The notes under the pieces are model-generated. The model ran no database searches, was not told the DNA's origin, and saw only the letters and a program-made list of their open reading frames with translations. Positions 26,144-45,650 of a stretch of DNA of 58,917 nt are shown piece by piece. The number at the start of each line of letters is the position of its first letter. Position 1 is the first letter of the stretch. The translations under genes were made by a program, and so were the position numbers. The stretch covers positions 1-58,917 of the forward strand of contig JAIPEW010000018.1 in the NCBI GenBank assembly GCA_021736985.1, in the 5' to 3' direction. The stretch comes from Clostridiales bacterium (GTDB taxonomy: Bacteria; Bacillota; Desulfotomaculia; Desulfotomaculales; VENG01).

Positions 26144-26890
26144 TTACGAGTTCATTACCCGGGAACTAATTGAATATGGTTGCTCAAGATCATGATCCTC
26201 CATTAACTTCTTATTACTGAAAATATCTACAGGCTTTCCGTCAGCAATAAGATTACCATTATGTAATAAGATAACGCGGTTACAAGCTTCCATAATAAAA
26301 TCAAGGTCATGGCTGGCAATAAGCATGGCCTCCTGGGTTGTAGATTTAAGAAAATTGATCAGGCGGCGGCGATAACGTATATCCAAATTTGATGTGGGCT
26401 CATCGTAAATTACAAGCCTTGGATACATGGCTAATACACCGGCAAGAGTAACCAGGCGTTTTTCTCCCCCCGAAAGGTTATGGGGCGGGCGTTCACTTAA
26501 ACTTTTTATCTCTAAAGAATCTAAAACTTCATTAACTCTTTTATTTATTTCTTCTTTTGAAAGACCCATGTTATTAGGCCCAAAGGCAATATCATCCCAC
26601 ACAGAAGGGCAAAATATCTGGTCATCCTGGTTTTGAAAAACCATTCCAACTTCAGGTCTGAATTTCCCAGGTACAACCGGCTTATCAAATAATTTTATCT
26701 CACCACGGGCAGCTTTTTTTACACCAGAAATAAGCAAGAACATGGTCGTTTTTCCGGTACCATTGGGACCTATAATACCTACTCTTTCCCCTGATTGAAC
26801 AGTTAAGGAAAAATTATTAAATATTTGCCTCCCATCAGGATAAACAAATGATAATCCTGCAATTTTTAGCACCGGTTCCTTCTGCATCAT
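26144..26890 (-). CDS. cbiO: cobalt/ECF transporter ATPase CbiO
   Basis: 248 residues. Walker A GPNGTGKTT at 41-49, signature LSGGEKR at 139-145, Walker B RLVIYDEP at 158-165. Q-loop sequence VFQNQDDQIFCPSVWDDIAFG is typical of ECF ATPases (CbiO/NikO). The other subunits, CbiM and CbiQ, are encoded on the opposite strand 2.2 kb away, beyond a cobalamin riboswitch. This gene therefore lies outside that riboswitch's transcript and needs its own promoter in 26891-27010. Substrate assigned to cobalt from the neighbouring riboswitch. Confidence 0.88.
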   Translation of the reverse strand: MMQKEPVLKIAGLSFVYPDGRQIFNNFSLTVQSGERVGIIGPNGTGKTTMFLLISGVKKAARGEIKLFDKPVVPGKFRPEVGMVFQNQDDQIFCPSVWDDIAFGPNNMGLSKEEINKRVNEVLDSLEIKSLSERPPHNLSGGEKRLVTLAGVLAMYPRLVIYDEPTSNLDIRYRRRLINFLKSTTQEAMLIASHDLDFIMEACNRVILLHNGNLIADGKPVDIFSNKKLMEDHDLEQPYSISSRVMNS

Positions 26891-27011
26891 AAAAATTATC
26901 CCCCATTTTTTCGGTCAAATCTAACTTAACAGTTAAAAACTATAATACTTGATAATATTATATCTTTCATTCCAATTCCCTTCAAGATTATCATATACTG
27001 GAGAAATATTG

Positions 27012-27040
27012 TAGACAAGTTCAACTGAATGTGTTAGAAT
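27012..27040 (+). promoter_or_regulatory. promoter for the cobalamin-riboswitch transcript
   Basis: TAGACA (27012-27017), 17-bp spacer, TAGAAT (27035-27040). Transcription would start near 27047, just before the riboswitch. Confidence 0.6.
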
Positions 27041-27062
27041 TTTTCTTAAATTAACATATATT

Positions 27063-27225
27063 GAAACGGGTGTTTTGCATCTGCAAAACCAAGAGGGAAG
27101 TTCAGTATAAGCTGACGCGGTCCCGCCACTGTATTAGGCAGCGAGCTCACATACGCCACCGGGGTACCCCCCGGGAAGGCGTGAGTAAGCGATAACCTTA
27201 AGCCAGGAAACCTGCCCGGTTCATA
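27063..27225 (+). promoter_or_regulatory. cobalamin (AdoCbl) riboswitch controlling cobalt uptake genes
   Basis: The conserved core is clear: AAGAGGGAAG, the GCGGTCCCGCCACTGT block at about 27117-27132, and the B12 box AAGCCAGGAAACCTGCC at about 27201-27217. A stem CACATACGCC...GGCGTGAG lies between. It precedes the lipoprotein-cbiL-cbiM-cbiQ set on the plus strand. Binding of cobalamin should switch these genes off. Confidence 0.95.
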
Positions 27226-27303
27226 TCTCGCCTGCGACCTACGAGGAATAGCGAGGGAGATAGAGACTAATGTTTATATTATTGTTATAAATATTACTCT
27301 CTG

Positions 27304-27339
27304 TCCCTTGTGTCTACTACAGGCAACAAGGATTTTTTT
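27304..27339 (+). terminator. expression-platform terminator of the first cobalamin riboswitch
   Basis: CCCTTGTGTC... pairs with ...CAACAAGG through CCTTGT/ACAAGG and is followed by seven T. It lies about 80 nt beyond the B12 box, consistent with transcriptional attenuation. Confidence 0.7.
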
Positions 27340-27489
27340 ATTAGGGCTTCTTACAGGCCAAAATATCTAAAATTAAATATTAAAGTAGGTGTCTGCCTCG
27401 AGAAGGTAGACTTAATTTACAGGTCAGATTAAGGTAATAACCTTAAAAATACTTATAAAAAAGTAACTTGAGGTTATAATGACCCAAAA

Positions 27490-27565
27490 ATCCGAAACCA
27501 TGCCTGCTTGCTAACAATAAGCACTCCTGAAGGGAGTAGTTGGTAAGTAGTGTCTTTTTTTTCGG
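27490..27565 (+). ncRNA. possible extra structured leader RNA upstream of the cobalt lipoprotein
   Basis: Three nested helices can be drawn: an outer CCGAAA/TTTCGG (27492-27497 with 27560-27565), a middle CTTGCTAAC/GTTGGTAAG (27507-27515 with 27539-27547, including G-T pairs) and an inner ACTCC/GGAGT (27523-27527 with 27533-27537). A T-tract lies at 27554-27562. It could be a terminator or a second sensor; I recognise no known riboswitch class. Confidence 0.35.
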
Positions 27566-27576
27566 TTGACTATACT

Positions 27577-27610
27577 CCCGGTGCTTAGCAGCACCGGGTT
27601 TTATATTTTT
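27577..27610 (+). terminator. second terminator in the leader of the cobalt lipoprotein
   Basis: CCCGGTGCT and AGCACCGGG form a 9-bp stem, followed by TTTTATATTTTT. It lies ~100 bp before the lipoprotein start, so transcripts must read through it or start after it. The stretch 26891-27713 otherwise holds only the promoter, riboswitch and RNA structures listed here. Confidence 0.8.
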
Positions 27611-27713
27611 AAAAGAAAGGAGGACGGGCTGCTTATTAAAAACATATAAAAATTTCTTTGTTTTAGATTAATTTTTAATATTATTTTACTAAATCGTTAG
27701 GAGGAAATAAAAA

Positions 27714-28538
27714 ATGAAGAAGCGTTTATTCATTCTATTAGCTTTAACTCTTTTGGGAGTACCTGTTTTAGCTGGTTGTTCAGCTAACGAAGATACTTCA
27801 GCAAATAATGAAACAAGTAATAAAACTGGTACACTGGAATTCTATGCCAACGGTCAAGATTTTGCAAGAGAAGGTTTTGTTGCCAAGGACGGGTGGGCTT
27901 TAGATTTTGATCATGTTTACGTAGTCTTATCTGGTATTACTGGTTATCAATCTGATCCCCCCTACAACCCTAAAGAAGGCGGAGAGATACAAGCACAAGA
28001 AAAAGTAGGGTTGGAAAAGACTTATACTGTAGACATTGCAGAAGGCAGCAGCCCTTCATTAGTTGGTAAAGTAGAATCAGCTCCCGCAGGTCACTATAAC
28101 GCCATATCCTGGGAGATGGTAAAAGCTAATAAAGATCCTGTTAAAGGCAATGTCATTGTATTTATTGGCCAGGCAGAAAAAGATGGTAAAACAGTAGACT
28201 TCAACATTAAGTTAGATAAAGAAATAAAATACTCTGCCGGTGAATACGTTGGCGATGAAAGAAAAGGATTTGTCCAGGAAGGGAAAACAGCAAATTTAGA
28301 GATTACTTTCCACCTGGATCACCTTTTTGGAGATGCTGAAGTAGCAGCTGACGATGCTTTAAATAAAAAGGCCCTGGGTTTTGAGCCATTTGCCAGCATT
28401 GCAGAAAATGGTAAGCTGAATGCCAACATGGCTGGTCTTAAAAACAAGCTCTCATCAGAAGAAGCTCACAAACTTAATCATATAATACCTCATCTAGGTC
28501 ACGTGGGTGAAGGACACTGCCACGCAAAAGAACTTTAA
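27714..28538 (+). CDS. cobalamin-regulated lipoprotein with His/Cys-rich C-terminus
   Basis: 274 residues. A lipoprotein signal peptide with lipobox LAGC (Cys22) is followed by a Ser/Asn/Thr linker and a single globular domain (about 40-274). The C-terminus is HLGHVGEGHCHAKEL, with H260, H263, H268, C269 and H270 as a likely metal site; HLDHLFGD lies near 205. AGGAGGAAATAAAA precedes the ATG. A close paralogue lies at 34876-35727 beside cobO. Position under a cobalamin riboswitch and before cbiL/cbiM suggests it binds cobalt at the outer membrane face and hands it to CbiM; that is inference. I do not recognise a named family. Confidence 0.75.
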   Translation: MKKRLFILLALTLLGVPVLAGCSANEDTSANNETSNKTGTLEFYANGQDFAREGFVAKDGWALDFDHVYVVLSGITGYQSDPPYNPKEGGEIQAQEKVGLEKTYTVDIAEGSSPSLVGKVESAPAGHYNAISWEMVKANKDPVKGNVIVFIGQAEKDGKTVDFNIKLDKEIKYSAGEYVGDERKGFVQEGKTANLEITFHLDHLFGDAEVAADDALNKKALGFEPFASIAENGKLNANMAGLKNKLSSEEAHKLNHIIPHLGHVGEGHCHAKEL

Positions 28539-28550
28539 ATCAGGTTCAAA

Positions 28551-28580
28551 CAAGGAAAGAGTTAAAAATCTTTCCTTGTT
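28551..28580 (+). terminator. intercistronic hairpin after the cobalt lipoprotein
   Basis: CAAGGAAAGA and TCTTTCCTTG form a perfect 10-bp stem. No long T-tract follows, so it may be a partial terminator or an RNA-stability element that sets the level of the downstream transporter genes. Confidence 0.55.
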
Positions 28581-28610
28581 CAGTAAGTTAACTATAAAGG
28601 AGACATGGCA

Positions 28611-29051
28611 ATGAATAAAAAACTATTAGTTATTTTATTTACTCTTCTTTTCGTCCTGTGTTTTACCTTTTCAGCATATGCTCACGGAGTAAATATGAGC
28701 TACCAGGGCAATATGTCCTATACTATTAAAGCTGAATTTGATACCGGGAAACCCATGTCCGGGGCACAAATAATTATCTATGCTCCCGATGATCCTGCAA
28801 CTCCCTGGAAAAAAGGTACCTGCGATGAAAACGGGCAGTATGTTTTTGTACCGGATACATCTAAAGAAGGAACCTGGCTTGTACAGGCCAGGAAGGCAGG
28901 ACACGGTGCATCAATTAATATAGAGGTTGGCGAAGACGCTTCTTTATCCGGCGGCACAGGATATTCAGCAATGCAAGTAATAATAATGATCGCTTGTGTT
29001 GTATGGGGTTTTGTTGGTACTGCACTATTCTTTAAGAGGAGGAAAAATTAA
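28611..29051 (+). CDS. CbiL/NikL-like transporter accessory protein
   Basis: About 146 residues from the preferred start (ATG 28611, AAGGAGA 7 nt upstream; an ATG two codons earlier is too close to the site). A signal segment (about 5-24) is followed by an extracytoplasmic carboxypeptidase-regulatory-like beta domain (about 28-105: GKPMSGAQIIIYAPDDP, GTCDENGQYVFVPD) and a C-terminal membrane span (about 117-138) with a KRRKN tail. This is the layout of NikL/CbiL components that replace or supplement CbiN in nickel/cobalt ECF systems. Its stop codon overlaps the cbiM start (TAATG). Confidence 0.75.
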   Translation: MNKKLLVILFTLLFVLCFTFSAYAHGVNMSYQGNMSYTIKAEFDTGKPMSGAQIIIYAPDDPATPWKKGTCDENGQYVFVPDTSKEGTWLVQARKAGHGASINIEVGEDASLSGGTGYSAMQVIIMIACVVWGFVGTALFFKRRKN

Positions 29052-29713
29052 TGCATATTCCTGATGGCGTACTGCCTACCTCTGTATGTGCTGCTGGTTA
29101 TGCAGTTACCGGGATCGCTGTATGGTACTCATTGCGGAAATTAAATAAACAAGAAGATCCCCGAAAAGACATTCCCAAGGCTTCACTGGTTACAGCAGCA
29201 TTTTTTGTAACTTCGTGGATTCATATTCCCATACCACCAACAAGTGTCCACCTCATGCTTACGGGATTACTGGGAGCACTGCTGGGATATTATGCATACC
29301 CGGCCGCCGTAATCGCACTGTTTTTCCAGGCAGTCATGTTTCAACACGGGGGTCTGACAACGATAGGAGTAAACGCAGTTATTTTAGGAATACCGGCAAT
29401 GCTGTGCCACTATATATATAGTTACGGCAAGGGAATTATTAATGACAGCAAAGTAAAAAACAGTATTCTAGGACTAATTATAGGAGTAACAGGTACAGGA
29501 TTATCGGTATTCATCTGGTTCCTTATTCTTATAAACTTTATCTCTGCTAATTTAAATGCTTCTGCAGAAAGGGCCGCTATCATCACAGGAACCCTGGCCC
29601 ATGTTCCCTTAATGGCACTGGAAGGTGTATTCACAGCATTTATACTAGTTTATCTCAAGAGAGTAAAACCAGAATTGTTAGGAGAACAGAGTAATGAAAA
29701 TAGCGCTGGATAG
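29051..29713 (+). CDS. cbiM: cobalt ECF transporter substrate-binding component CbiM
   Basis: 220 residues. It begins MHIPDGVLP, the invariant N-terminus whose amino group and His2 coordinate the metal in CbiM/NikM. About six membrane spans follow, with PPTSVHLML and FQHGGLTTIGVN in the expected places. The start overlaps the previous stop and the end overlaps cbiQ by 20 bp, so cbiL-cbiM-cbiQ is a coupled operon. CbiM and NikM are hard to tell apart; cobalt is preferred because of the cobalamin riboswitch. Confidence 0.92.
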   Translation: MHIPDGVLPTSVCAAGYAVTGIAVWYSLRKLNKQEDPRKDIPKASLVTAAFFVTSWIHIPIPPTSVHLMLTGLLGALLGYYAYPAAVIALFFQAVMFQHGGLTTIGVNAVILGIPAMLCHYIYSYGKGIINDSKVKNSILGLIIGVTGTGLSVFIWFLILINFISANLNASAERAAIITGTLAHVPLMALEGVFTAFILVYLKRVKPELLGEQSNENSAG

Positions 29714-30449
29714 TTATCACGGCATGAATACAATTATACACCGCTGGGAACCAAGGACAAAATTTATCGCGCTTATGCTGTTAATATTTGCATTTTCCTT
29801 TGTAAAAAATATAGAACTAATACCAGTGATGATTATAAGCAGCTTTATTTTATATACATTGTCCAGGCTTCCATTTTCGTTTTTATTAAGCAGATTATGT
29901 TTACCTGGTTTTTTCATTTTTATCATGTTAGTATTGTTATTATTTCTTTCCCAGGGTACCGTTTTATTTAAGATAGGGCCCCTGGCAGTAAAAAAAGAAG
30001 GACTTTCCTTAGCATTTCTTATCGCTGTTAGGTTCATTTGCATTATTACAATTGTTACTATTTTATTTGCAACGAGCTCTTTTGTAAAAATTATTAAAGT
30101 TATGCGATCTCTAGGGCTGCCTCCGCTGCTGGCCGAAATGATGACTTTTACCTATAGATATATATTTGAAATTGGTAAAGATTTAATGACTATGCTGGAT
30201 GCCATGAAAATACGCGGGTTTAAAGCACGCAGCTTAAAGGATGTTAGCACACTTTCTTCCCTGGCAGGCACAATCTTTGTGCGAAGTTACGACCAGTCAG
30301 ACCGGGTATACAGTGCTATGGTACTCAGGGGATACGGTCAACCTGCTTCATTTGAAGAAGATTTTCAAGCTAAAAAATCAGACATTGCGTTAATGATAAT
30401 AGTTATATTAACAGCATGTACATTAACTCTTGCTCAAATATTTTTATAA
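29694..30449 (+). CDS. cbiQ: cobalt ECF transporter transmembrane component CbiQ (EcfT)
   Basis: 251 residues, five or so membrane spans. Two Ala-Arg-Gly-type coupling motifs lie in the cytoplasmic helices (AMKIRGFKARS and AMVLRGYGQP). It overlaps cbiM by 20 bp. The ATPase that must couple to it is presumably CbiO at 26144-26890, encoded divergently. Confidence 0.9.
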   Translation: MKIALDSYHGMNTIIHRWEPRTKFIALMLLIFAFSFVKNIELIPVMIISSFILYTLSRLPFSFLLSRLCLPGFFIFIMLVLLLFLSQGTVLFKIGPLAVKKEGLSLAFLIAVRFICIITIVTILFATSSFVKIIKVMRSLGLPPLLAEMMTFTYRYIFEIGKDLMTMLDAMKIRGFKARSLKDVSTLSSLAGTIFVRSYDQSDRVYSAMVLRGYGQPASFEEDFQAKKSDIALMIIVILTACTLTLAQIFL

Positions 30450-34781: not shown

Positions 34782-34834
34782 CAATTAAATAAGTAAAAAA
34801 TCGTGCCAGGCACATTTTTTTACTTATTTAATTG
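34782..34834. repeat. A/T-arm palindrome, copy a (also terminator)
   Basis: Core AATAAGTAAAAAA-TCGTGCCAGGCACA-TTTTTTACTTATT. GTGCC/GGCAC forms the inner stem and the A/T arms continue it. Here the arms extend outward to CAATTA/TAATTG beyond the core shared by all copies. It can terminate in both directions and closes the lipoprotein gene at 34876. Confidence 0.85.
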
Positions 34835-34875: not shown

Positions 34876-35727
34876 CTATAAAACTTCTACATGACAATGC
34901 CCTTCACCGACATGCCCCAGGGTAGGAAGCACATTTTTTAGCATCTTGTAATCTTCAGAACACATTTTATCTTCAAGCTCACTTATGCTAGCATTTAACG
35001 TACCATTTTCAGCTGCTTCTGCAAAAGGATCAAAACCTGGTGCAGCAGCATTAAGTCCACCGTCTGCAGGGGCCCCGGCATCACCGAAAACATGATCAAA
35101 GTGGAAGGTCATTTCCAATTCAGCTTTTTCCCCTTCTTTTACAAATCCCTTGCGCTCATCACCTATATACTCTCCACCGGTATATTTATACTCTGTTCCA
35201 TCTTTTATGGTAAAATTAACTGTTTTTCCATCTTTCACTGCTTCACCTGTAACAGCCAGTGAATATCCTTTGGACGGACCAGTTTCTGCATGAACCATTT
35301 TCCATGAAATAGCATTATAATGACCAACAGGAACATCTTCTACCTGGCCAACTAATATAGGATCGGCATTTTCACTACCTTTTGCAAGATCTACAACATG
35401 CGCCTCGGAAAGAGCAACTTTATTTTTGGGTTGAATTTTACCTCCATCTTCGGCTTTATACGCTGGTTCTGACTGGTATCCAGTAACAGCAGCAAGATTT
35501 ACATATACATGCTCGAAAGCAATGTCCCAACCGTCTTTTGATGTAAAACCTTGTCTTACAAAATCTTCACCGTTAGCCTTAAAATGCAGGGTACCTGTTT
35601 GCTCTTTTTGCTCTACCTGTTTACTGGTTTGTTCTTTATCTTGCTGGCTATTTTCACCGGAGCTGCATCCTGAAACAACAGCTAGAAAAAAAGTTAGAGC
35701 TAACACACTAAGATAAAGTTTTTTCAT
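34876..35727 (-). CDS. lipoprotein with His/Cys-rich C-terminus, paralogue of the one at 27714
   Basis: 283 residues. Lipobox VSGC (Cys21), a Gln/Glu/Lys linker, then the same domain as the protein at 27714-28538: GTLHFKANGEDFVRQGF, KDGWDIAFEHVYVNL, HYNAISWKMV, HFDHVFGDAG. It ends LGHVGEGHCHVEVL, keeping H272, H277, C278 and H279. Roughly half the residues are the same by eye. It lies downstream of cobO, separated by a palindrome and a hairpin. I infer an extracytoplasmic cobalt- or corrinoid-binding role; no named family is recognised. Confidence 0.75.
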   Translation of the reverse strand: MKKLYLSVLALTFFLAVVSGCSSGENSQQDKEQTSKQVEQKEQTGTLHFKANGEDFVRQGFTSKDGWDIAFEHVYVNLAAVTGYQSEPAYKAEDGGKIQPKNKVALSEAHVVDLAKGSENADPILVGQVEDVPVGHYNAISWKMVHAETGPSKGYSLAVTGEAVKDGKTVNFTIKDGTEYKYTGGEYIGDERKGFVKEGEKAELEMTFHFDHVFGDAGAPADGGLNAAAPGFDPFAEAAENGTLNASISELEDKMCSEDYKMLKNVLPTLGHVGEGHCHVEVL

Positions 35728-35953: not shown

Positions 35954-36493
35954 TTAGCGTTCGATTCCTTCTCTTGCCTGCACTCCCTGTTCATAATAAT
36001 GTTTAACTTCTTTCATTTCAGTTACCAGGTCTGCTTTTTCTATTACTTCACCTGGTACGTAGCGACCGGTGAAAATTACTTCTACACCGTCCGGCTTTTC
36101 TTTTATTACGTCTAACATTTCCCCGGTAGATACCAGGTTGAAATAATGCGCGGTATTTATCTCGTCAAATATTATAATATCGTAATCGCCGGAAAACATG
36201 GCGTTTTTCGCTTTTTCCAGGCCGTCCGCGGCCATCTTCACATCCTCTTCATGAGGAGGATTAGTAACATGAATAAAAGTATCCTTTCCATACTGTTCTA
36301 TAGTAATATAATTGCCAACCATTTCTGCTGCTTTTAACTCGCCGTAATACTGGCCTTTCATGAACTGGCCGATATAAGTTTTTAACCCGCGCCCCATGGC
36401 CCGGAAAGCCAGGCCCAGGGCTGAAGTAGATTTCCCCTTGGAGTTCCCTGTATAAACCTGTACATATCCTTTTTCTAATAATTCTTTATTCAT
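35954..36493 (-). CDS. cobO: cob(I)yrinic acid a,c-diamide adenosyltransferase (CobO/BtuR)
   Basis: 179 residues, usual length. The P-loop is GNSKGKST at 16-23, in place of the more common GDGKGKTT, and YDIIIFDEIN provides the second ATP-site motif near 105-114. It transfers adenosyl from ATP to Co(I) corrinoid, making the coenzyme form and trapping imported corrinoid. AGGAGG lies 7-8 nt before the ATG. It is 15 bp downstream of the ECF S-component gene, so import and adenosylation are on one transcript. Confidence 0.93.
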   Translation of the reverse strand: MNKELLEKGYVQVYTGNSKGKSTSALGLAFRAMGRGLKTYIGQFMKGQYYGELKAAEMVGNYITIEQYGKDTFIHVTNPPHEEDVKMAADGLEKAKNAMFSGDYDIIIFDEINTAHYFNLVSTGEMLDVIKEKPDGVEVIFTGRYVPGEVIEKADLVTEMKEVKHYYEQGVQAREGIER

Positions 36494-36508
36494 TTATAAA
36501 CCTCCTGA

Positions 36509-37204
36509 TTAAAGTTGATTCTGGTCTAAGTAACTAACAAACATCTTATTTTTAAAGCGTTTTAAAACTTGATAAAAAGATTTGCCCAGTAAAAAAGAAA
36601 AAATTATATTGCCAAGGGCATGCAGGGTATCAAAAGGGAAACTGGCCATATATGCAGCCGTAAAGGTCTTGAGCGTTAATGGATATACAAACCCGACCCA
36701 GTGCCATAAATTCATAATCCAGCCAAACAAATATCCCCAGCAAAAAGCCAGCACTGTGAATGGAAGTAATTTAAAACCTTTCAACTTACTGCCTAATAAA
36801 GCAGCTGATGCTCCGCATAGCCCCCAGCTGAACATCTGCCACGGCGTCCAGGGCCCCTGGCCTAAAAAGAAATTAGACACTAATGCAGCAGCTGCCCCGA
36901 CCATAAACCCTTCCTGTACCCCGAATACATAGCCGGTTATCATAACGATAAAAGTAGTAGGTTGTATACTCATCACGGCTGCAAAAGGAATCCTGGAAAC
37001 AGCTGCAAAAGAAGCCATAGTAGCAATAAGTGCAATTTCTTTAGATGCTGCACCTTTTTTTTCAAAGCGCCAGAAAAAAGTGAGTACAGCCAGGCCAATG
37101 ATAACAGCAGAAAACAGGGCCCAGTTAACACCTACGGGCAGCACACTCAATACCAGCAGCAGGCCGGTAACAGCAAGAATTAATGTCCAGTATATATTCT
37201 TCAT
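36509..37204 (-). CDS. ECF transporter S component, probable corrinoid specificity
   Basis: 231 residues with seven or so hydrophobic spans. The first two spans (about 5-45) precede the core S-component fold, which starts at KEIALIATMASFAAVSRIPF and includes GYVFGVQEGFMVGAAAALVSN and PWTPWQMFSWGLCGASAALLG. ATG follows directly after the stop of the SLH-toroid gene, so translation is coupled. S components bind the vitamin and dock on EcfT. Placement between CobO and a cobalamin-riboswitch operon points to a corrinoid; CbrT is the known ECF cobalamin S component. Specificity is inferred from context. Confidence 0.82.
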   Translation of the reverse strand: MKNIYWTLILAVTGLLLVLSVLPVGVNWALFSAVIIGLAVLTFFWRFEKKGAASKEIALIATMASFAAVSRIPFAAVMSIQPTTFIVMITGYVFGVQEGFMVGAAAALVSNFFLGQGPWTPWQMFSWGLCGASAALLGSKLKGFKLLPFTVLAFCWGYLFGWIMNLWHWVGFVYPLTLKTFTAAYMASFPFDTLHALGNIIFSFLLGKSFYQVLKRFKNKMFVSYLDQNQL

Positions 37205-38713
37205 TTATTTTATCCCGAGTATATCTCTTAGCTGGACTATACTGTAAGCACACTGGGCCCTGGTAGCATTTGCCTGCGCGTCAAACCCGGGACACAGGAG
37301 GCCATTTTTCTCTGCCCGGCGCACGCTGGCCGAGTACCAGTATGGTCCAGATTTGACTTCATACTGTTTTTCCTCCGGAAGGGCCCTTACCAGCATGGCA
37401 GCCATCTCCCCACCGGTTATTTTCCCCCTGGGAGCAAATACATCTTCCGACCTGCCGTTAACATACCCTTTTTGCGCAGCAATAGAGACTACATTATAAT
37501 ACCATTTATCTTGCGGTACATCTTTAAACTTGCCTGCTGCACTACTATTTATCCCCTGCAAATCAAGCCCGTATGCCATGAACTTGGTAAACTCAGCCCT
37601 GCTAACAGGCTCTCCCGGTTTAAACACGCCCCCGGGATAACCGCTTAATATATTGTTGTTAACAAGCTGCATAACTGGATCATATGCCCAGTGCCCGGGA
37701 GAAAGATCGGAAAACTTGCTTGTATTAGAAGACTTGCTTGTAAATTTATCATAATTCACGTTCACCGGAAATGGTTTTCCGGCAAGAGCCATAACTGTAC
37801 AAGCAGTTACCTTAACAGGAGAAGATTTAACCCCGGGCTTCCAGTTAAAATATCCTTTATTGCTTTGTAAACTCAAGATATGGCTTATTACATCATTATT
37901 ATTTACAGACCACTTTTCACTCACCGGGTTTTCACCTGCAGCCAGCAGTCCCTGCAGCACCCAGGCATCAGTAGAAGCATTGGGATCGCTGCTAAACCAG
38001 CCGCTGCTGAAGCCTCCATTTTCTTGCTGGTAATCTTTTATGTAATCAAGAGCATCCTTTACAGCAGCAGACTCCCGGTCCTGTCCCAGCAGTATTAAAG
38101 CTTGCAAGGCTATGCTCGTATCATCTACATCACTTCTACCCCCGGGGGCCCAGCTAAACCCACTGTTTTCTTGCTGCTGCTCCAGCAGCCAATCCCTGGC
38201 ATTTTCACTGTCCGGTATATCCCGGGAAACAGATGCAAGCGCAAGAATTGACCACATGTGGGAGTTAACCAGCTTACCCAAATGCCCGTTTTCGTGCTGT
38301 ACAGACATTATTTTATCAGCCGGATTTATACCGTTATAAGTTACCCCCTGCCCGGCTGCAGACAAGGCAAGTAATATCCTGGCACAGTCATTAGTAGATT
38401 CTAAAGATTTAGTGCAATCCTGCAGGTAATCTACGGGAGTATTTCCAGCCTTTGACCAGCTGCTACCGTCAGGATCTTCCCCGGCTGCCCTGACAGCCAT
38501 AATAACCCACGCGGTAGTATCACGATTGCTTTCCCGTCCTTCTTTACAGGGAAACCCACCGTCTTTATTTTGAATATCCTGAAAATAATCAAGTGCTTCT
38601 TGAATGCTTTCTTGCGCCTCGTTCTCAGGAAAGGAATTAGAGGCTGCAGCAGTACCTGTAAAAGAAAAGACAAGCAGCAGGGATATTATAAAAGCCATAA
38701 TTTTCTTATTCAT
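37205..38713 (-). CDS. SLH-anchored alpha/alpha-toroid protein (transcobalamin alpha-domain-like)
   Basis: About 502 residues from ATG 38711-38713. A signal peptide is followed by prenyltransferase/squalene-oxidase-type repeats (about 30-330), each with a Gln-x-x-x-Gly-Gly-Phe turn: QNKDGGFP, QQENSGFSW, QQENGGFSSGW. Three SLH repeats close the chain (about 335-390, 395-450, 455-502), so it is held to the wall polymer. The toroid fold is also the alpha domain of intrinsic factor and transcobalamin. It sits between the ECF ATPase (20 bp after) and the S component in a cobalamin-regulated operon. I infer a wall-bound corrinoid-capture protein. Confidence 0.82.
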   Translation of the reverse strand: MNKKIMAFIISLLLVFSFTGTAAASNSFPENEAQESIQEALDYFQDIQNKDGGFPCKEGRESNRDTTAWVIMAVRAAGEDPDGSSWSKAGNTPVDYLQDCTKSLESTNDCARILLALSAAGQGVTYNGINPADKIMSVQHENGHLGKLVNSHMWSILALASVSRDIPDSENARDWLLEQQQENSGFSWAPGGRSDVDDTSIALQALILLGQDRESAAVKDALDYIKDYQQENGGFSSGWFSSDPNASTDAWVLQGLLAAGENPVSEKWSVNNNDVISHILSLQSNKGYFNWKPGVKSSPVKVTACTVMALAGKPFPVNVNYDKFTSKSSNTSKFSDLSPGHWAYDPVMQLVNNNILSGYPGGVFKPGEPVSRAEFTKFMAYGLDLQGINSSAAGKFKDVPQDKWYYNVVSIAAQKGYVNGRSEDVFAPRGKITGGEMAAMLVRALPEEKQYEVKSGPYWYSASVRRAEKNGLLCPGFDAQANATRAQCAYSIVQLRDILGIK

Positions 38714-38745
38714 TACACACACCATCCTTTGTCTGAATATACTTA

Positions 38746-40434
38746 CTATCCTGAAACAGCATTCTCACCTGAATCCATTAATTTAACCAGGGCTTCTTTA
38801 CCCTGCTCCAGGGTTACTACACCATCAATTATATTATTAAATAACTTGCTGAGTTGAGGTGAATAAAAGGTGGACCCCGTAAGCATTTCATGCTTGCTCC
38901 CCTGTGCAATTATACTGCCTTCGGCCATTAACACTATATTTTCTGCATATTCTGCTGCAAACTCCACGTCATGGGTAATTATTATTACGGCAGTACCTTC
39001 TGCCTGCAGCTGCTTCATTATATTGCCCAGTTCTTCTTTTAGCTGGTAATCCAATCCCCTGGTAGGTTCATCCAGCAAAAGCAATTCAGGTTTTGCCACC
39101 AGTATTGACGCCAGGGCTACCCTCTGTCTTTCACCTGCACTCAAGTCCCGGGGATTGGATTCTGCATAAGGAGTAAGCTGCAGCTTGTTCATTACATCAT
39201 CAATTATCCCGTCATCAGGCAAGCCCAGGTTATCCAGTGTATAGCTCAGCTCTTGTTCTACGCTGTCCAAAAACAGGTAATCATTGGGATCCTGCGACAA
39301 GTACCCACAAACAGGGGCCAGTTCTTCCACGGAAACTTTTTTAGTATCCCAGCCAGACACCCTTACCTGTCCCCTGCCGGGCTTCAAAAGGCCGTTAATA
39401 TTCTTTAAAAAAGTACTCTTACCTGCTGCATTCTCTCCCATTATTACAGTAAAATCACCCGGGTTAATCTTAAGATTTATGTTTTTAAGTACTTCTTTAC
39501 CGTTAGAATAAGAAAACCACAGGTTATGTACATCTACCAGGCTCTTACCTTGTATTTTTCTCTGCTTTTTACCGGGAGCTTTTTTTCTCTTAATTTCTGG
39601 GAAATGAGTATAAGGAATTAATATTTGTTTCCCCTGTTTAACAGTAAGAGGAATACTTGAAGCATTTACACCGGCAAACAATTTTGCCAGGGGTGGAATG
39701 AATGAACTTTCATTTCTTACTGCCCACCGGGCTGTCTCTTGAGGGATATCATCACAGGCGATACACCCTTTTTCCATGACCAGTACTCTGTCTGCCAGGT
39801 GAAAACACCTTTCCAGGCGCTGTTCTACCAGTATAACTGTGATTCCGTTTTCCTCGTTCAGCCTTTTTACCAAGGTAAGAATTTCTTCCCCTGCTACAGG
39901 GTCAAGCTGGGAGGTAGGTTCATCCAATATTAAAACCTCCGGCTGCATAACTAAAACAGAAGCAAGGGCAACTTTCTGCTTCTGCCCCCCGGAAAGCTCC
40001 GGAATATAATTATGTAAACAACCGGACAATCCCAGGGCACTGCTTACCTCCATAATACGGCGCTTCATTAGATTGTTCGGTAAACCCATGTTTTCAAGCC
40101 CGAAAGCCAGTTCTTCTTCTACACAGGTCATCACTAGCTGGCTTTCCGGGTCCTGGAATACCATGCCTACATTTTTTACCAGCTCACACCTCTCCATATG
40201 CTTTACTTCATCATGATCTATAATAATGCTGCCGCCGTAAGTACCCCCGTAAAAACCTGGAATTAAACCACAAATTGCCCTTACAAGTGAAGATTTCCCG
40301 CACCCGGAGCTGCCTGCCAGCAAAACAAACTGGCCATCCAGAATTTCCATGTTTATATTATCCAGGGCAGGCTTCTGTATATCCGGGTAATAATAAGTCA
40401 GATTTTTAATTTTAATAACTGCCACCTTTTCCAC
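38746..40434 (-). CDS. fused tandem ECF transporter ATPase (EcfA-EcfA')
   Basis: 562 residues with two complete nucleotide-binding domains. NBD1: Walker A GSSGCGKSS at 41-49, signature LSGGQKQ, Walker B VLILDEPTSQLDP. NBD2: Walker A GENAAGKST at 333-341, signature LSAGERQR, Walker B LLLLDEPTRGLD. The ATPases of ECF transporters are usually two genes, so this is a fusion. The start is probably GTG at 40432-40434 and overlaps ecfT by 37 bp. It powers the S component and EcfT of this operon. Confidence 0.93.
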   Translation of the reverse strand: MEKVAVIKIKNLTYYYPDIQKPALDNINMEILDGQFVLLAGSSGCGKSSLVRAICGLIPGFYGGTYGGSIIIDHDEVKHMERCELVKNVGMVFQDPESQLVMTCVEEELAFGLENMGLPNNLMKRRIMEVSSALGLSGCLHNYIPELSGGQKQKVALASVLVMQPEVLILDEPTSQLDPVAGEEILTLVKRLNEENGITVILVEQRLERCFHLADRVLVMEKGCIACDDIPQETARWAVRNESSFIPPLAKLFAGVNASSIPLTVKQGKQILIPYTHFPEIKRKKAPGKKQRKIQGKSLVDVHNLWFSYSNGKEVLKNINLKINPGDFTVIMGENAAGKSTFLKNINGLLKPGRGQVRVSGWDTKKVSVEELAPVCGYLSQDPNDYLFLDSVEQELSYTLDNLGLPDDGIIDDVMNKLQLTPYAESNPRDLSAGERQRVALASILVAKPELLLLDEPTRGLDYQLKEELGNIMKQLQAEGTAVIIITHDVEFAAEYAENIVLMAEGSIIAQGSKHEMLTGSTFYSPQLSKLFNNIIDGVVTLEQGKEALVKLMDSGENAVSG

Positions 40435-41312
40435 CCCCAGTTCAAAAACGCCGGCAAAGATAAAGCGAGCATCTCAATTAGTGCAGCATTTAACTCTTTA
40501 AAATTCATGTTTTCCAGGCGGGGATAATAAGTAAAAACAGCCCAATCGTGAAAAACAGCAGCCAGCCCGGTCATAACTGAAACTACCAGCGCACCCAGTA
40601 CAAAAAAATCTCTCGGCCTCCATAAATCCCGGGAATAAAAACTCCTCGGCCCACTGCCGTATCCCCTGGCATGCATTGATTCAGCTATTTGCATAGAACG
40701 CTCCAGGGATGATAATAAAACTACTTTTACAACCGGCAGGCGGTTTTTTAAACGCTGCCGCAGGCTGCCCGTGTCGAGTTTTACTCCCCTGCAGCGCTGT
40801 ACTTCGGTTACTCTCCGCACATCCTGTACCATCAGGGGAAACAAGCGGGTAGCAAGCGTCACAACAAGCACAGCCTTTTTACCAAACCTGCTGAACAATT
40901 TTAAAACCTTGTCGGGATGCACTGCATATGTATATAAACAAAAAACACTGATGATTACCACCAGGCGAATTCCCATTGCGGCACTAAAACATACAGCTTC
41001 CAGCGTTACTTTTATTTTTCCCATAACGGGGATCGCGGGCCCGTAAAACAAAACCGTAGACCCGTTCTGGACAAAAACGGAATTTACCAGGATAATCATC
41101 ACTACTATCCCGGATGCCATTAATAAATAATACTTCCACTTATCTGCATTTCCCGAGGCTATAATTACAGCACCTACTGCAAAAAAAAGAACCAGGAGAT
41201 AAACCGGGTGAGAGAAAATCAATGATAACAGCAGCACCACAGCTATATAAGACATGACAGTAACCGGGTGCAGCTTGTATATTAAGTTATCCTTTTCACG
41301 GTAAACAAGCAT
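40398..41312 (-). CDS. ECF transporter transmembrane component EcfT
   Basis: 304 residues, longer than CbiQ, with five to seven membrane spans. Coupling helices with RCRGVKL and ESMHARGYGSGPRS (Ala-Arg-Gly type) are visible. It overlaps the ATPase gene by 37 bp. The family couples ATP hydrolysis to toppling of the S component. Confidence 0.9.
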   Translation of the reverse strand: MLVYREKDNLIYKLHPVTVMSYIAVVLLLSLIFSHPVYLLVLFFAVGAVIIASGNADKWKYYLLMASGIVVMIILVNSVFVQNGSTVLFYGPAIPVMGKIKVTLEAVCFSAAMGIRLVVIISVFCLYTYAVHPDKVLKLFSRFGKKAVLVVTLATRLFPLMVQDVRRVTEVQRCRGVKLDTGSLRQRLKNRLPVVKVVLLSSLERSMQIAESMHARGYGSGPRSFYSRDLWRPRDFFVLGALVVSVMTGLAAVFHDWAVFTYYPRLENMNFKELNAALIEMLALSLPAFLNWGWKRWQLLKLKI

Positions 41313-41329
41313 AGTCCCATCCTCTGCTC

Positions 41330-41370
41330 AATAAGTAAAAAAATGTGCCAGGCACGATTTTTTACTTATT
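41330..41370. repeat. A/T-arm palindrome, copy c, inside the cobalamin operon
   Basis: Core AATAAGTAAAAAAAT-GTGCCAGGCAC-GATTTTTTACTTATT. On the minus strand its first arm supplies the last codons and stop (AAT AAG TAA) of the DUF4430 lipoprotein gene, and it then stands 18 bp before ecfT. It could attenuate transcription between the binding proteins and the transporter. Confidence 0.85.
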
Positions 41371-42498
41371 GTTTTTTATTAAGGGCAGTCTAATTACTTC
41401 GCCGTTCTTGATTGCTGCGCTGTAAAGGCCGGAGATTTTATCAGGTGTATTTACCAGCACGTCTACTGCCTGCTGCAGGCCTTCTCTGTCCGTACCGGAG
41501 ACAATCCAGAGCGGGCTTTCATCCCCGCTGCCTTTACCGGAAGCAATTATTACACCGGCTGTGCCGCTAATTTTTCGCGCCGCTTTAAATTGGGAGTTAA
41601 GCAGCTCGAGCCCTTCACCCGTAAAATGCACAGCTGTACCGCTTTTCCTGTAAGCTTTATTTAAATTAGCTAGATATTTTACCTGGTTTAACTTGCTCCA
41701 CTGTCCTACAGCAATAACCGGGCCTTCACAGTTTTTTAATGACTGGTTATTTAAACTGTGAATATTAACTGCAGACACACCATGGGCCCTCAATGCCTTT
41801 TTGATAGCAGCAGCCTGTTTTTTGCTCTCACCTGTATGTAAAACAGCAGTAGGAGCATTACCCCTGTAACCGTTTATAAATGGCTCCGGGTAACAGCCGA
41901 TAACAGCTGAAAACATGTTTACCTGCTGCCAGGAGTGATAATCCCACCAGACAATACCCCCTGCTTTTAAGGGATAATCCACGGCTCCTACATCTGAAAA
42001 TATGCCGTTAACATAATACATCCAGTCTTCTTTTTTACTGCCAAACCCCCCGTACCGGGATTCAAGCCCGTTAATACTTTTTATAAAAGCACCGCCGTAA
42101 GAAGTTTTTATCTCGGCAACTGCATCAAGTGCATCATACACTGTCCAGTCTTTTTCCATGGGGATTTTTTTGTTTATGAGTACTTCTCTGCCGAAACTTT
42201 TAGTTATCCGCAGCTTTACACTATCACTTTTTTCTTTTACGCCTTCCTCTTGTTTTTGCTTATTGTCAAAATTGGATTCTTTATCTACATCCTTTGTATT
42301 GTTATTAGTTTTTTTACTGGTTTCCACAGGTTCTTTTTGGTTATTTTGAGTACCACTTGTTACCTGCTGCTCTTCTTCTGTTTTTATTTTTTCTTGATTG
42401 TTAGCTGTATTATTGACTTTTTCATTACTGCAGGCAGCGAAGAAAAATACTATAGTTACAATAGATAATAATAAAATAAACAAACGGTAATTTTTCAT
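41362..42498 (-). CDS. DUF4430-containing lipoprotein (transcobalamin beta-domain-like)
   Basis: 378 residues. Lipobox FAAC (Cys23), a 70-residue Asn/Lys/Glu/Gln linker (24-93), a DUF4430 domain (about 94-190) and a further alpha/beta domain (about 195-375). DUF4430 signatures are clear: TVYDALDAVAE, DWMYYVNGIFSDVGAVDYPLK and GIVWWDYHSW. This domain corresponds to the small beta domain that caps the ligand in transcobalamin-type proteins. An AAGGGGTT ribosome site precedes the ATG. I infer a membrane-tethered corrinoid-binding or hand-off protein for the ECF transporter. The C-terminal domain is not recognised. Confidence 0.8.
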   Translation of the reverse strand: MKNYRLFILLLSIVTIVFFFAACSNEKVNNTANNQEKIKTEEEQQVTSGTQNNQKEPVETSKKTNNNTKDVDKESNFDNKQKQEEGVKEKSDSVKLRITKSFGREVLINKKIPMEKDWTVYDALDAVAEIKTSYGGAFIKSINGLESRYGGFGSKKEDWMYYVNGIFSDVGAVDYPLKAGGIVWWDYHSWQQVNMFSAVIGCYPEPFINGYRGNAPTAVLHTGESKKQAAAIKKALRAHGVSAVNIHSLNNQSLKNCEGPVIAVGQWSKLNQVKYLANLNKAYRKSGTAVHFTGEGLELLNSQFKAARKISGTAGVIIASGKGSGDESPLWIVSGTDREGLQQAVDVLVNTPDKISGLYSAAIKNGEVIRLPLIKNNK

Positions 42499-42530
42499 AA
42501 TTAACCCCTTTTAAATTAAAAAATTACAAT

Positions 42531-42561
42531 CTGCTTGCCGGCTTATGCAGCCGGCAAGCAG
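42531..42561 (-). terminator. strong intercistronic hairpin in the cobalamin operon
   Basis: CTGCTTGCCGGC and GCCGGCAAGCAG form a perfect 12-bp stem around a 7-nt loop between the first two genes. On the minus strand it is followed by ATTGTAATTTTTTAA, so partial termination or transcript stabilisation is likely. Confidence 0.75.
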
Positions 42562-42566
42562 GTAAC

Positions 42567-45176
42567 CTAGTATTTCACTATTTTTACTTCTTTAGTGTCA
42601 GGCAGCCATGTTACCTCAGCTCCCAATGATTCAGACACATAGCGTATCGGCACAAAACTGCGCCCGTTTATTATACTTGGAGGCACATCAAATCCCGGCA
42701 TATTTTCACCTACAACCAGTGACAATTGTTTATCATCTATAGAAATATTTACTGTTTTTGTTTTGCTGTTCCAACCAACATCAGCACCTGTACACTCGCT
42801 TATAAAACGCAGCGGAACCATGGTACGGCTGTTTATTATAGTAGGAGCAGCAGCAAGATTTATAACTTCACCATCAACCGTGGGTTTTAAATTATCAATT
42901 TGCAATTTAATTACAGTTGGTTTTTTAGCCTTTAATATTCCGTAGTAACTAAAACTATCAGTAGTAAAAGTATAGGTCTCTTCTTCCGGGTTATAAGAAC
43001 CATCAAGTTGTACAAGTTCGTAATTACCTTCGTCATCTTTTTCATATCTTACAGCAATCAACCTGTCTGCTTCTGTATCGCTGAGATTTAAATCTGACAG
43101 GTTAATTGTTACTTTTACAGGCTCATTAAATTGAGTTATTTTTTCAGTAGAAACTATTTCATCATCTTCGTTACTGCATGTTACTGCAGTATTCAAATCA
43201 AATAATTTGCTTTCTATATTTAAATATTTCTCACTTTCTTTTATAGAATTTTCTATATTTTGGTTTTCTGATAGATCAACTGCCCGGGCACTAATTTCTA
43301 AAGAAGCATTATCATCTTCACTTATATTATCGAGTTCCTGCATTTTTAATGATTCAACCGAAAATTCCAGGCTAATATTATTATTCTCTACAATGAGCGG
43401 TTTACTCTCATTACTCAATTCAGATATTGTATCCGGGGATAAAGCTGCCTTATTATTACCTTTACTGCTTATATCAAGCTTTGCTTCTCCTGTTTTTTCA
43501 AGGTTATCTAAAACCATATCGTCATCACTTACATAAGAAATAGAAGATGAATCTCCTGGTATATCGTTCGGGTCTGTACTGTACCACCACGTTACCTGGT
43601 CCCCGTCTGAAAGATGAATTTCCGGAGCCCCAACACCTGGTGCATCATTATTTACATTAAACATCCACCCGTTCATACCTTCGTTTGCTTGTCCTTCTAT
43701 TTCCGTAACTAAATCATCAAAAACAAAATCTAAGCCGGCAGCTTCTAATGCACCCAGGGCAGTTGCTTCCCATTCCAGGTTATCTTCTTCTAAACTCACT
43801 TCACCTGAATACAAACTTTCTTCATCTTGTCCTATTACTTCTACAGAAACTTCAGGACCATCTGAAGTGCCTGTATCATTATTACCATCATTATTGCCGC
43901 CACTTTCTTTAATACTTATATTGGCATTGCCAGTTAAATCCTGGTAAGTAGCAGTAACAACAGTATCTCCCGCACTTAAACCTTTAACTTGGCCTTTATA
44001 AACCACTGAGGCAACACTTTCATCATCTACAGTCCATTCAGCAAATTGACTTACATCTATCTCACTTCCTGCAAAATCATATAATTCAGCAGCAAATTCT
44101 TGCTCTTCGTCTTCGGAAATTGTTGTATTATAGGGAGTTACAATTAATACGTCATCTACACTAGCTCCTACCATAAGATAAGCATCCAGGGCAAATGTAT
44201 TATCTGTTATGTTTTTTGACATTCCAAAAGTACCATCATCATTTAATGCACCTGTTTTCATATAATCCACAGGACTATAACCTGCTTCGTTTTCCCATGT
44301 TCCAGGGTTTATTTCTAGGATGTTTAGTGTATATATTACCTCTGCTGTATCTATAACCTTATCATCCCAGTATGTTATACCATCCCATACTGTGGAAACA
44401 GTAAAACTTCCATCTTCTTGCTGTTGATTACTAATCCAGCTAATTGCCTTGTCTATTGCACTTTGAATATTGTCTTTCATATCCTGGTTATTAGCATGCG
44501 GTTTTAAATACTTTAATACCCGTACAGCCTGGGCAGTAACCTGGAAATTAGAATATGCCCAGGTTCCCGTTTCAGTATCTTGTTTATTTAAGATATAATT
44601 TATTGCACTACCTGTATCTATTTTATCTATCGCCCCTGCTCTTCCTAAAGCTTCAAAAGCAGGCATATTATTGTAAATACTATAATCTCCTTGATCAAAA
44701 CCATCTGCCGCTTGTGTTTCAGTTTGTCTTTCTTGAAGTTTATTTAATAAATCGTTTTTAGCAACATCATCCCAGCTTTTAGCAGCCAGATATTTATAGG
44801 CTATACTTCTTGCAGAATCTTCCTCACCTGTATTATTAATTAAACTGATTACTTTCTCCTTAAGACTTTCACCATCATATACCCATGTAGATACATCAAT
44901 GTTTGCCTTGCTTAAAATATAAGCATCATAAGAACCGAGGTTACCCTGTTCGCCATTAACTGGTGCACCATTACAAAAAGCTTCATAATTATTGTATACT
45001 GCTTTTTGAGCCAGATTGTCTACATCATCCCCATAAACCTCGTCTGCAAGAGCAATGTTGTTGTCAGCACCTTGTGATACAAGCGTAAATACAGGTAACA
45101 TTATAGCTGTCACAAACACTATTAATACAATTTTAGAAGTTAAAGATAAATAATTTCTTTTATTTAATTTATTCAC
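42567..45176 (-). CDS. large exported transcobalamin/intrinsic-factor-like protein (toroid, Ig-like, DUF4430, stalk)
   Basis: 869 residues from GTG 45174-45176; an in-frame ATG five codons earlier contains the AGGAGGG ribosome site itself, so the GTG is preferred. Order: signal peptide (1-~37); alpha/alpha toroid (about 50-340: NKQDTETGTWAYSNFQVTA, SNQQQEDGSFTVSTVWDG, TGALNDDGTFGMSKN); BIG2-like Ig domain (about 341-423); Gly/Asn linker; DUF4430 (about 443-535: ATALGALEAAG, GWMFNVNNDAPGVGAP, DGDQVTWWYS); beta-rich region (550-750); copper-amine-oxidase-N-like stalk (about 760-869: NSRTMVPLRFISE, INGRSFVPIRYVSE). Toroid plus DUF4430 in one chain is the layout of animal B12 carriers. It is the first gene after a cobalamin riboswitch. 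Confidence 0.82.
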   Translation of the reverse strand: MNKLNKRNYLSLTSKIVLIVFVTAIMLPVFTLVSQGADNNIALADEVYGDDVDNLAQKAVYNNYEAFCNGAPVNGEQGNLGSYDAYILSKANIDVSTWVYDGESLKEKVISLINNTGEEDSARSIAYKYLAAKSWDDVAKNDLLNKLQERQTETQAADGFDQGDYSIYNNMPAFEALGRAGAIDKIDTGSAINYILNKQDTETGTWAYSNFQVTAQAVRVLKYLKPHANNQDMKDNIQSAIDKAISWISNQQQEDGSFTVSTVWDGITYWDDKVIDTAEVIYTLNILEINPGTWENEAGYSPVDYMKTGALNDDGTFGMSKNITDNTFALDAYLMVGASVDDVLIVTPYNTTISEDEEQEFAAELYDFAGSEIDVSQFAEWTVDDESVASVVYKGQVKGLSAGDTVVTATYQDLTGNANISIKESGGNNDGNNDTGTSDGPEVSVEVIGQDEESLYSGEVSLEEDNLEWEATALGALEAAGLDFVFDDLVTEIEGQANEGMNGWMFNVNNDAPGVGAPEIHLSDGDQVTWWYSTDPNDIPGDSSSISYVSDDDMVLDNLEKTGEAKLDISSKGNNKAALSPDTISELSNESKPLIVENNNISLEFSVESLKMQELDNISEDDNASLEISARAVDLSENQNIENSIKESEKYLNIESKLFDLNTAVTCSNEDDEIVSTEKITQFNEPVKVTINLSDLNLSDTEADRLIAVRYEKDDEGNYELVQLDGSYNPEEETYTFTTDSFSYYGILKAKKPTVIKLQIDNLKPTVDGEVINLAAAPTIINSRTMVPLRFISECTGADVGWNSKTKTVNISIDDKQLSLVVGENMPGFDVPPSIINGRSFVPIRYVSESLGAEVTWLPDTKEVKIVKY

Positions 45177-45206
45177 TTTTTCCCTCCTCATTATGAAATA
45201 GAACTC

Positions 45207-45247
45207 AATAAGTAAAAAAATGTACCCGGCACGATTTTTTACTTATT
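45207..45247. repeat. A/T-arm palindrome, copy d, in the operon leader
   Basis: Core AATAAGTAAAAAAAT-GTACCCGGCAC-GATTTTTTACTTATT. It lies between the riboswitch terminator and the ribosome site of the first gene, so it is transcribed whenever the switch is on. Confidence 0.8.
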
Positions 45248-45248
45248 A

Positions 45249-45276
45249 AAAACCCCCGGCCTACACCGGGGGGTTA
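45249..45276 (-). terminator. expression-platform terminator of the second cobalamin riboswitch
   Basis: On the minus strand AACCCCCCGGTG...GCCGGGGG is followed by TTTTTA. The GTAGGC at 45264-45259 inside it can instead pair with GCCTAC at 45325-45320, just after the aptamer, giving an antiterminator. This is a classic transcriptional attenuator. Confidence 0.8.
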
Positions 45277-45332
45277 TGTGCTGTCATACAGCATAAAAAT
45301 ATACACCTCCCCATCAACCGTAGGCTGGCGTG

Positions 45333-45588
45333 CGGCAGTACAGGCAGGTATCCTGGCTCGGTTCATCGAGGTACTCATGTCTTCCCATCCAGCACTCAAG
45401 GTGTTCAGGTTATTTAAAAGCAATTAATCTTTCATGGATAACCTATACTATACAATAATTAAATACAGTTGAGTGCTGGATAGTGACTTGTTATGAGACC
45501 TCTCCCCATTACAGTGGCGGGACCGCGCCGGACTTGCACCGGCTTCCCTTTTAAGCTTTACCTCGCGGGTAAAGCACCTGTACTGTCT
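45333..45588 (-). promoter_or_regulatory. cobalamin (AdoCbl) riboswitch controlling the corrinoid-uptake operon
   Basis: Read on the minus strand: GACAGTACAGGTGC starts P1, then AAAGGGAAGCCGGTGCAAGTC and CGCGGTCCCGCCACTGTAAT, and the B12 box AGCCAGGATACCTGCC (45358-45343), closed by TGTACTGCC. A very long peripheral hairpin (ATCCAGCACTCAA pairing with TTGAGTGCTGGAT, about 45392-45486) lies between the core and the B12 box. Confidence 0.96.
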
Positions 45589-45621
45589 TTGTTATTAAAT
45601 TTTACATACAATTAATTATTA

Positions 45622-45650
45622 AATCTAGCATAATTTCCCCTTAATGTCAA
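45622..45650 (-). promoter_or_regulatory. sigma-A promoter of the corrinoid-uptake operon
   Basis: Minus-strand TTGACA (45650-45645), 17-bp spacer, TAGATT (45627-45622). Transcription would start about 30 nt before the riboswitch. Confidence 0.75.

Follow-up and report, generated by a model that had tools for sequence, protein, structure and literature searches.

What does a Gram-positive bacterium of the Clostridia import when proteins resembling the animal carriers of vitamin B12 are encoded in one operon with an energy-coupling factor (ECF) transporter? The question is raised by seven genes on contig JAIPEW010000018.1 (C62) of the 2.84 Mb genome of a Clostridiales bacterium (GCA_021736985.1); this whole contig, 58,917 nucleotides long, is the window analysed here. 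We read the locus as a cobalamin-repressed corrinoid-salvage operon with transcobalamin-like carriers and a dedicated ECF importer, at a probability of roughly 0.82. Corrinoid uptake with such carriers is the best reading because of the cobalamin riboswitch, the S component of the CbrT family, the predicted carrier folds and the conserved gene set.

The operon runs from 45650 to 35954 on the minus strand, where a promoter-like site, a full-length cobalamin riboswitch and an intrinsic terminator are followed by seven tightly packed genes, with intergenic gaps, from gene 1 to gene 7, of 68, 49, -37 (an overlap), 20, 0 and 15 bp. Its features are as follows.

45622-45650 (-), putative sigma-70-type promoter, TTGACA-17-TAGATT with an extended TG, 26 bp 5' of the aptamer (10 of 12 consensus matches, a consensus match only)
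45326-45596 (-), cobalamin riboswitch aptamer (RF00174, 113.7 bits, E 9.3e-28, model 1-189 complete)
45253-45272 (-), predicted intrinsic terminator CCCCCGGTGTAGGCCGGGGG-TTTTT between the aptamer and gene 1 (8-pair stem with 7 G-C pairs, then TTTTT)
42567-45191 (-), gene 1, secreted alpha/alpha toroid with an immunoglobulin (Ig)-like Big_2 domain, a DUF4430/SLBB domain (DUF4430 E 1.2e-10) and 2 copper-amine-oxidase-N repeats; probable start GTG 45176
44166-45044 (-), toroid domain of gene 1, limits approximate (AlphaFold2 model m5b50f3f64670; top PDB matches 4kki, 2bb6, 4zrp, 7qbe)
43551-43877 (-), SLBB/DUF4430 domain of gene 1 (PF14478)
42531-42561 (-), strong hairpin in the gap separating gene 1 from gene 2 (13 base pairs with a weak U tract, ATTGTAATTT)
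41362-42498 (-), gene 2, DUF4430/SLBB lipoprotein (PF14478, E 3.6e-17; structure model m941e1da6b59d)
40398-41312 (-), gene 3, EcfT (CbrV-type) transmembrane component (CbiQ/EcfT, PF02361, E 2.1e-16)
38746-40434 (-), gene 4, fused EcfA-EcfA' (CbrU-type) ATPases (2 ABC_tran domains; best NCBIfam match ECF_ATPase_1, TIGR04520, E 1.2e-121)
37205-38725 (-), gene 5, secreted alpha/alpha toroid with a C-terminal SLH anchor (Prenyltrans/SQHop, Prenyltrans E 4.8e-14; SLH E 1.6e-26; PDB sequence matches)
36509-37204 (-), gene 6, CbrT-family ECF S component (sole PDB match 6fnp)
35954-36493 (-), gene 7, CobO/BtuR corrinoid adenosyltransferase (CobA_CobO_BtuR, PF02572, E 1.7e-61)

The aptamer scores well above the RF00174 gathering threshold of 31.5 bits, and the succession of aptamer, terminator and start codon fits an off switch that acts by terminating transcription, which would turn the operon off with B12 bound. 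The hairpin between genes 1 and 2 may act as a partial terminator or as an RNA-processing or stability element. A preliminary description, made by reading the letters of the window, had placed a promoter and a cobalamin riboswitch ahead of this gene set; both are found, and each open reading frame it listed lies where it was given on the minus strand, with the domains confirmed by family searches, in which PF14478 exceeds its cut-off in genes 1 and 2. Its choice of the GTG at 45176 as the start of gene 1, with AGGAGG just 5', is also preferred over the ATG at 45191, from which the product counts 874 amino acids. The N terminus of this protein is hydrophobic, its toroid is marginal by sequence (Prenyltrans E 0.008), and its C-terminal end consists of copper-amine-oxidase-N repeats, not SLH, which are presumed to be a surface module.

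In a search of the PDB with its single sequence, the only match of gene 6 is chain A of 6fnp (E 6.9e-11), and a profile of 11 relatives again matches only this chain (E 8.5e-23), which is the S component of ECF-CbrT from Lactobacillus delbrueckii. On these matches, the gene 6 S component is assigned to the CbrT family. Import of cobalamin and cobinamide has been demonstrated for the L. delbrueckii ECF-CbrT (PMC5997447). The EcfT and the two ECF ATPases of this importer type (CbrUVT or ECF-CbrT) are present in the operon as well, and CbrUVT is already used as a corrinoid/B12 importer in genome reconstructions, where it is listed as cobyrinate diamide uptake (PMC8123684). With these systems the operon shares a CbrT-family S component, EcfT, two EcfA ATPases and the link to cobalamin. 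It differs from L. delbrueckii ECF-CbrT in its fused ATPases and its own EcfT, whereas the L. delbrueckii CbrT uses a shared general ECF module, and in encoding carriers, none of which are reported for L. delbrueckii. A BtuFCD importer in the operon was ruled out, the genome's only Peripla_BP_2 gene lying on contig C4 with BtuC-/BtuD-like neighbours.

Could the importer carry a metal instead? A cobalt (or nickel) ECF importer with metal-binding DUF4430 proteins might be argued for on the grounds that the EcfT falls in Pfam 'CbiQ' and that 3u7z, a fold match of gene 2, bears the PDB title 'putative metal binding protein'. The S component, however, is CbrT and not CbiM, and 26144-30449 of the same window contains a distinct cobalt system, CbiM/CbiQ, with a cobalamin riboswitch of its own. 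In this system, the second riboswitch (104.9 bits) is followed within 27051-30449 by a lipoprotein gene, a gene for a small membrane protein that takes the position of CbiN, and the genes of CbiM and CbiQ, with a CbiO-type ATPase adjoining on the opposite strand (26144-26890). Cobalt import was rejected on these two grounds, and a metal importer of this kind is very improbable.

The likeness of the surface proteins to the animal carriers comes from structure prediction. Residues 36-600 of gene 1, modelled by AlphaFold2 with 25 family members, reach a mean predicted local distance difference test (pLDDT) score of 83.6, and the toroid is clear, with pLDDT mostly above 90. When this model was compared with 350,542 PDB chains, ranks 1-11 were taken by haptocorrin, transcobalamin and intrinsic factor (best E 3.3e-9), in alignments of about 515 columns that span both the toroid and the SLBB domain. 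For gene 2 (mean pLDDT 82.8), the fold match is the isolated transcobalamin beta domain (5np4/5no0), at a root-mean-square deviation (rmsd) of 2.3-2.7 A and a template modelling score of 0.68-0.70 of the target; parts of this protein resemble BcsB in the fold search, with poor superposition. The toroid and DUF4430 beta folds proposed in the preliminary description are present in the models of genes 1 and 2, whose predicted folds are nearest to those of the animal B12 carriers.

How far is the arrangement conserved? DUF4430 was found in 35 of 60 related genomes, the genome of the window included, and 40 loci of the order Desulfotomaculales usually run toroid+SLBB, small SLBB, with or without toroid-SLH, EcfT, EcfAA' and CbrT. 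For 31 of the 40 loci, a cobalamin riboswitch on the same strand precedes the first toroid/SLBB gene by no more than 1 kb; the chance of such linkage for a random gene is estimated at about 1 in 1000 (with about 6 riboswitches per 3 Mb genome). Of the other nine, five have the riboswitch 1.3-7 kb away, three are truncated at a contig end, and one is a lone SLBB gene without a riboswitch. The large toroid+SLBB gene is relocated in G007, G026 and G044, where both loci keep their own cobalamin riboswitch; in such split loci, the small SLBB protein remains in the ECF operon. An unusual expansion of B12-controlled loci is seen in two relatives: G025 has 21 cobalamin riboswitches with 8 DUF4430 matches, and G036 has 19 with 7.

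An independent search with the CbrT alignment alone against 84,980 species genomes gave at least 566 confirmed stretches, the best 80 of which were kept. Among these 80 are Desulfallas, Desulfoscipio, Moorella, Syntrophomonas, Pelotomaculum, Thermosyntropha and many Clostridium (including C. drakei and C. luticellarii), together with scattered metagenome-assembled genomes labelled Armatimonadetes, Dehalococcoidales and Deltaproteobacteria. With the SLBB lipoprotein as a single query, no relatives were found in the genome collection, whereas the CbrT alignment did recover loci. In the 51 CbrT loci with adequate flanks, an SLBB/DUF4430 gene is present in 50, and a toroid gene and fused ATPases in all 51. 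A cobalamin riboswitch was detected in about 41 of 45 testable loci (35 by nucleotide profile and 6 more by Infernal, of which the one in L144 is weak and partial at 34.1 bits); the rest of the 51 comprise 6 cut at a contig end and 4 without a visible riboswitch. Several Clostridium have the order EcfT-EcfAA'-CbrT-toroid/SLBB-SLBB; the gene order varies between loci while the gene set persists. Because many genera of the order and other Clostridia keep this set, chance is excluded. Homologous operons, which the preliminary description had suggested looking for behind cobalamin riboswitches elsewhere, are consistently located there; for the folds and for operon control, the outcomes named as refuting that description did not occur.

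The predicted anchors differ between the two kinds of SLBB protein. By a simple rule, 69 of the 70 small SLBB proteins with a judgeable N terminus carry a lipobox or a hydrophobic segment there, while 25 large toroid+SLBB proteins carry SLH in 21 cases and copper-amine-oxidase-N repeats in 2; the copy of gene 1 from the window was trimmed in this count, and its repeats were seen in the full-length scan. N-terminal anchors on the small proteins and SLH on the large ones suggest one capture protein held at the wall and one at the membrane. In L054, L058, L060, L061 and L078, large toroid proteins with 2-3 tandem DUF4430 domains were observed. Such SLH and other wall modules on the carriers would also suit structural proteins of S-layer type, or proteins for sequestration at the surface, which share B12 control and do not feed the importer, for example by holding corrinoids against competitors or recapturing leaked cobamides. 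This explanation gains from the existence of split loci and from the animal carriers, which release B12 only after proteolysis (PMC11107200). It is unlikely nevertheless, given that the linkage to CbrT is near-universal (50 of 51) and that the small SLBB protein, predicted to be membrane-tethered, stays in the ECF operon even where the locus is split.

Part of this picture is not new. Burroughs et al. 2007 (PMC1796856) defined the SLBB superfamily and described bacterial toroid+SLBB fusions, naming Desulfotomaculum, with wall-type accessory domains, a second SLBB paralogue and CbiO-/CbiQ-like neighbours in the operon; they inferred B12 scavenging, proposed the bacterial proteins as the source of animal transcobalamin, and remarked that the hosts usually lack key B12 biosynthesis enzymes (a tendency, not a definition). 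The operon in the window shares with that clade a secreted toroid+SLBB fusion, a second SLBB gene and CbiO-/CbiQ-type genes in one operon. The preliminary description had presented the pairing of carriers with an ECF importer as a notable system; since this pairing and its interpretation already appeared in 2007, the operon is a well-supported putative example of a predicted system, not a new one. The riboswitch, the S component and CobO are absent from the text of the 2007 paper, and no report of corrinoid binding by bacterial DUF4430 proteins was found in the open-access literature (subscription papers were not covered).

The host differs from the usual hosts of the 2007 clade in having most B12 synthesis genes (most cbi genes, cobT and cobQ). 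Its genome contains 7 cobalamin riboswitches in total. Behind or near them lie genes of the anaerobic pathway (cbiA, D, E, T, L, F, G, H, J and C, cobT and a second CbiJ-like gene), and cobQ is present elsewhere in the genome, in an inventory that covered the late genes (cbiB, cobU, cobS, cobD and the chelatase) only in part. A BtuF/BtuC/BtuD-like set is encoded on contig C4, and a second CobO on C57. Another riboswitch on C4 (L080:10035-10216, G000:C4:69034-69215; 120.8 bits) has a terminator-like hairpin directly after it and the next large open reading frame on the opposite strand, and is possibly an orphan. The gene content indicates that the host can very probably make B12 itself, and since the genome has most of the anaerobic pathway and BtuFCD, the operon would serve for salvage and not as the sole B12 supply.

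A B12 producer might use the same importer mainly for incomplete or foreign corrinoids (cobinamide, cobyrinate or other cobamides), which it would salvage and remodel. Besides the probable prototrophy of the host, this agrees with the acceptance of cobinamide by ECF-CbrT (PMC5997447), the listing of cbrUVT as cobyrinate diamide uptake (PMC8123684) and the binding of cobinamide by the isolated transcobalamin beta domain (PMC5599065). The riboswitch, on the other hand, senses the finished coenzyme, and sequence cannot separate such a ligand from cobalamin; we consider foreign corrinoids as the main natural ligand possible but rather unlikely.

Several points weigh against a corrinoid-salvage operon with transcobalamin-like carriers. 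To our knowledge, ECF transporters characterised to date need no extracellular binding protein. The host encodes BtuFCD and the larger part of the anaerobic B12 pathway, contrary to the 2007 remark on hosts. An Ig domain stands between the toroid and the SLBB domain of gene 1, PF01122 (eukaryotic cobalamin-binding protein) has no match in gene 1, and the toroid sequence profile is nearest in the PDB to squalene-hopene cyclases, with likeness to other toroids too, and does not recover transcobalamin. Transcobalamin was not recovered from the PDB by SLBB-domain profiles either, so the likeness of the carriers to the animal proteins rests on predicted folds. The rmsd of the gene 1 model over both domains exceeds 20 A because the toroid and SLBB domains lie apart in it, not closed as in holo-transcobalamin; in the animal carriers, the two domains close only on the ligand (PMC11107200). 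In favour of the likeness, the 60 related genomes yielded only 2 PF01122 signals, and these, although below the cut-off, both come from the present gene set, namely from the G007 gene 1 and the G045 toroid gene. Compared with animal intrinsic factor, haptocorrin and transcobalamin (PDB 2pmv, 4kki, 2bb5), the bacterial set has the same toroid and SLBB folds, as predicted, with these proteins as the best matches in the whole PDB. It differs in the interposed Ig domain, the wall anchors, the separate extra SLBB and toroid proteins and the lack of a significant PF01122 match.

For the corrinoid-salvage operon, we infer the following course of events. When coenzyme B12 is scarce, the riboswitch would let transcription through the terminator at 45253-45272, and the cell would make wall-held transcobalamin-like proteins, with toroid and SLBB in one chain (gene 1) or a toroid on an SLH anchor (gene 5), together with a membrane-tethered SLBB protein (gene 2) and the dedicated importer EcfT/EcfAA'/CbrT. 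The toroid and SLBB domains would close on a corrinoid as in the animal carriers and concentrate it at the wall; the carriers would release it to CbrT for ATP-driven import, and the imported corrinoid would be adenosylated by CobO. The Bacteroides BtuG-type surface capture (PMC6143338) is similar by analogy, a surface protein catching corrinoid for an importer, although the organisms and cell envelope are unrelated and the likeness drawn here is one of role. In a two-step form of this relay, the wall-held toroid+SLBB protein would be followed by the membrane SLBB protein and the toroid-SLH protein as a two-chain transcobalamin that hands the corrinoid to CbrT; this is put forward tentatively, as something we would sooner doubt than accept. 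Trapping by CobO, which the preliminary description had proposed, is not a general part of the system: CobO is found in 0 of 79 CbrT loci and near the operon in only 3 of the 40 loci of the order, and the second CobO is elsewhere in the genome. It was rejected as a defining component, and gene 7 appears to be a lineage-specific addition to the operon. From that earlier interpretation, the cobalamin control, the CbrT (B12) family importer and the predicted folds nearest to the animal carriers stand; novelty and a general role of CobO do not, and the order of hand-over from the wall to the S component is a proposal.

One further gene and a repeated element adjoin the operon.

34876-35727 (-), candidate gene 8, 283-amino-acid lipoprotein that falls in no known family and whose membership is uncertain (gap of 227 bp; paralogue of 27714-28538)

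Its paralogue at 27714-28538 lies directly behind the riboswitch of the cobalt system; both lipoproteins have about 280 amino acids and a GEGHCH motif near the C terminus, neither has a Pfam match, and a PDB search with 34876-35727 gave no match. They are candidates for binding cobalt or corrinoids. Intergenic gaps of the window contain copies of a palindromic element of 35 bp, AAGTAAAAAATCGTGCCNGGNACATTTTTTTACTT, at 34791, 35911, 41333, 45210, 53076 and 54641, and 4 of these copies lie around the corrinoid operon; its core has 20 matches genome-wide at no more than 1 mismatch, against 0 for the reversed control.

What is new here is that the carrier prediction of 2007 is joined to the CbrUVT line, together with locus counts, an S component assigned to CbrT, a comparison of folds, a pattern of anchoring and a likely prototrophic host. 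The riboswitch-controlled pairing with CbrT makes that prediction concrete, in that the S component is named, the likely regulation is fixed, and wall and membrane proteins are told apart. A likely B12 maker keeps the system, which is then not merely an auxotroph's tool. If the relay is true, it would be an ECF importer served by extracellular carriers, unlike the characterised ones, and would preserve in living bacteria a form of the animal carriers' ancestor; these operons offer a way to test why an ECF transporter would use extracellular binding proteins.

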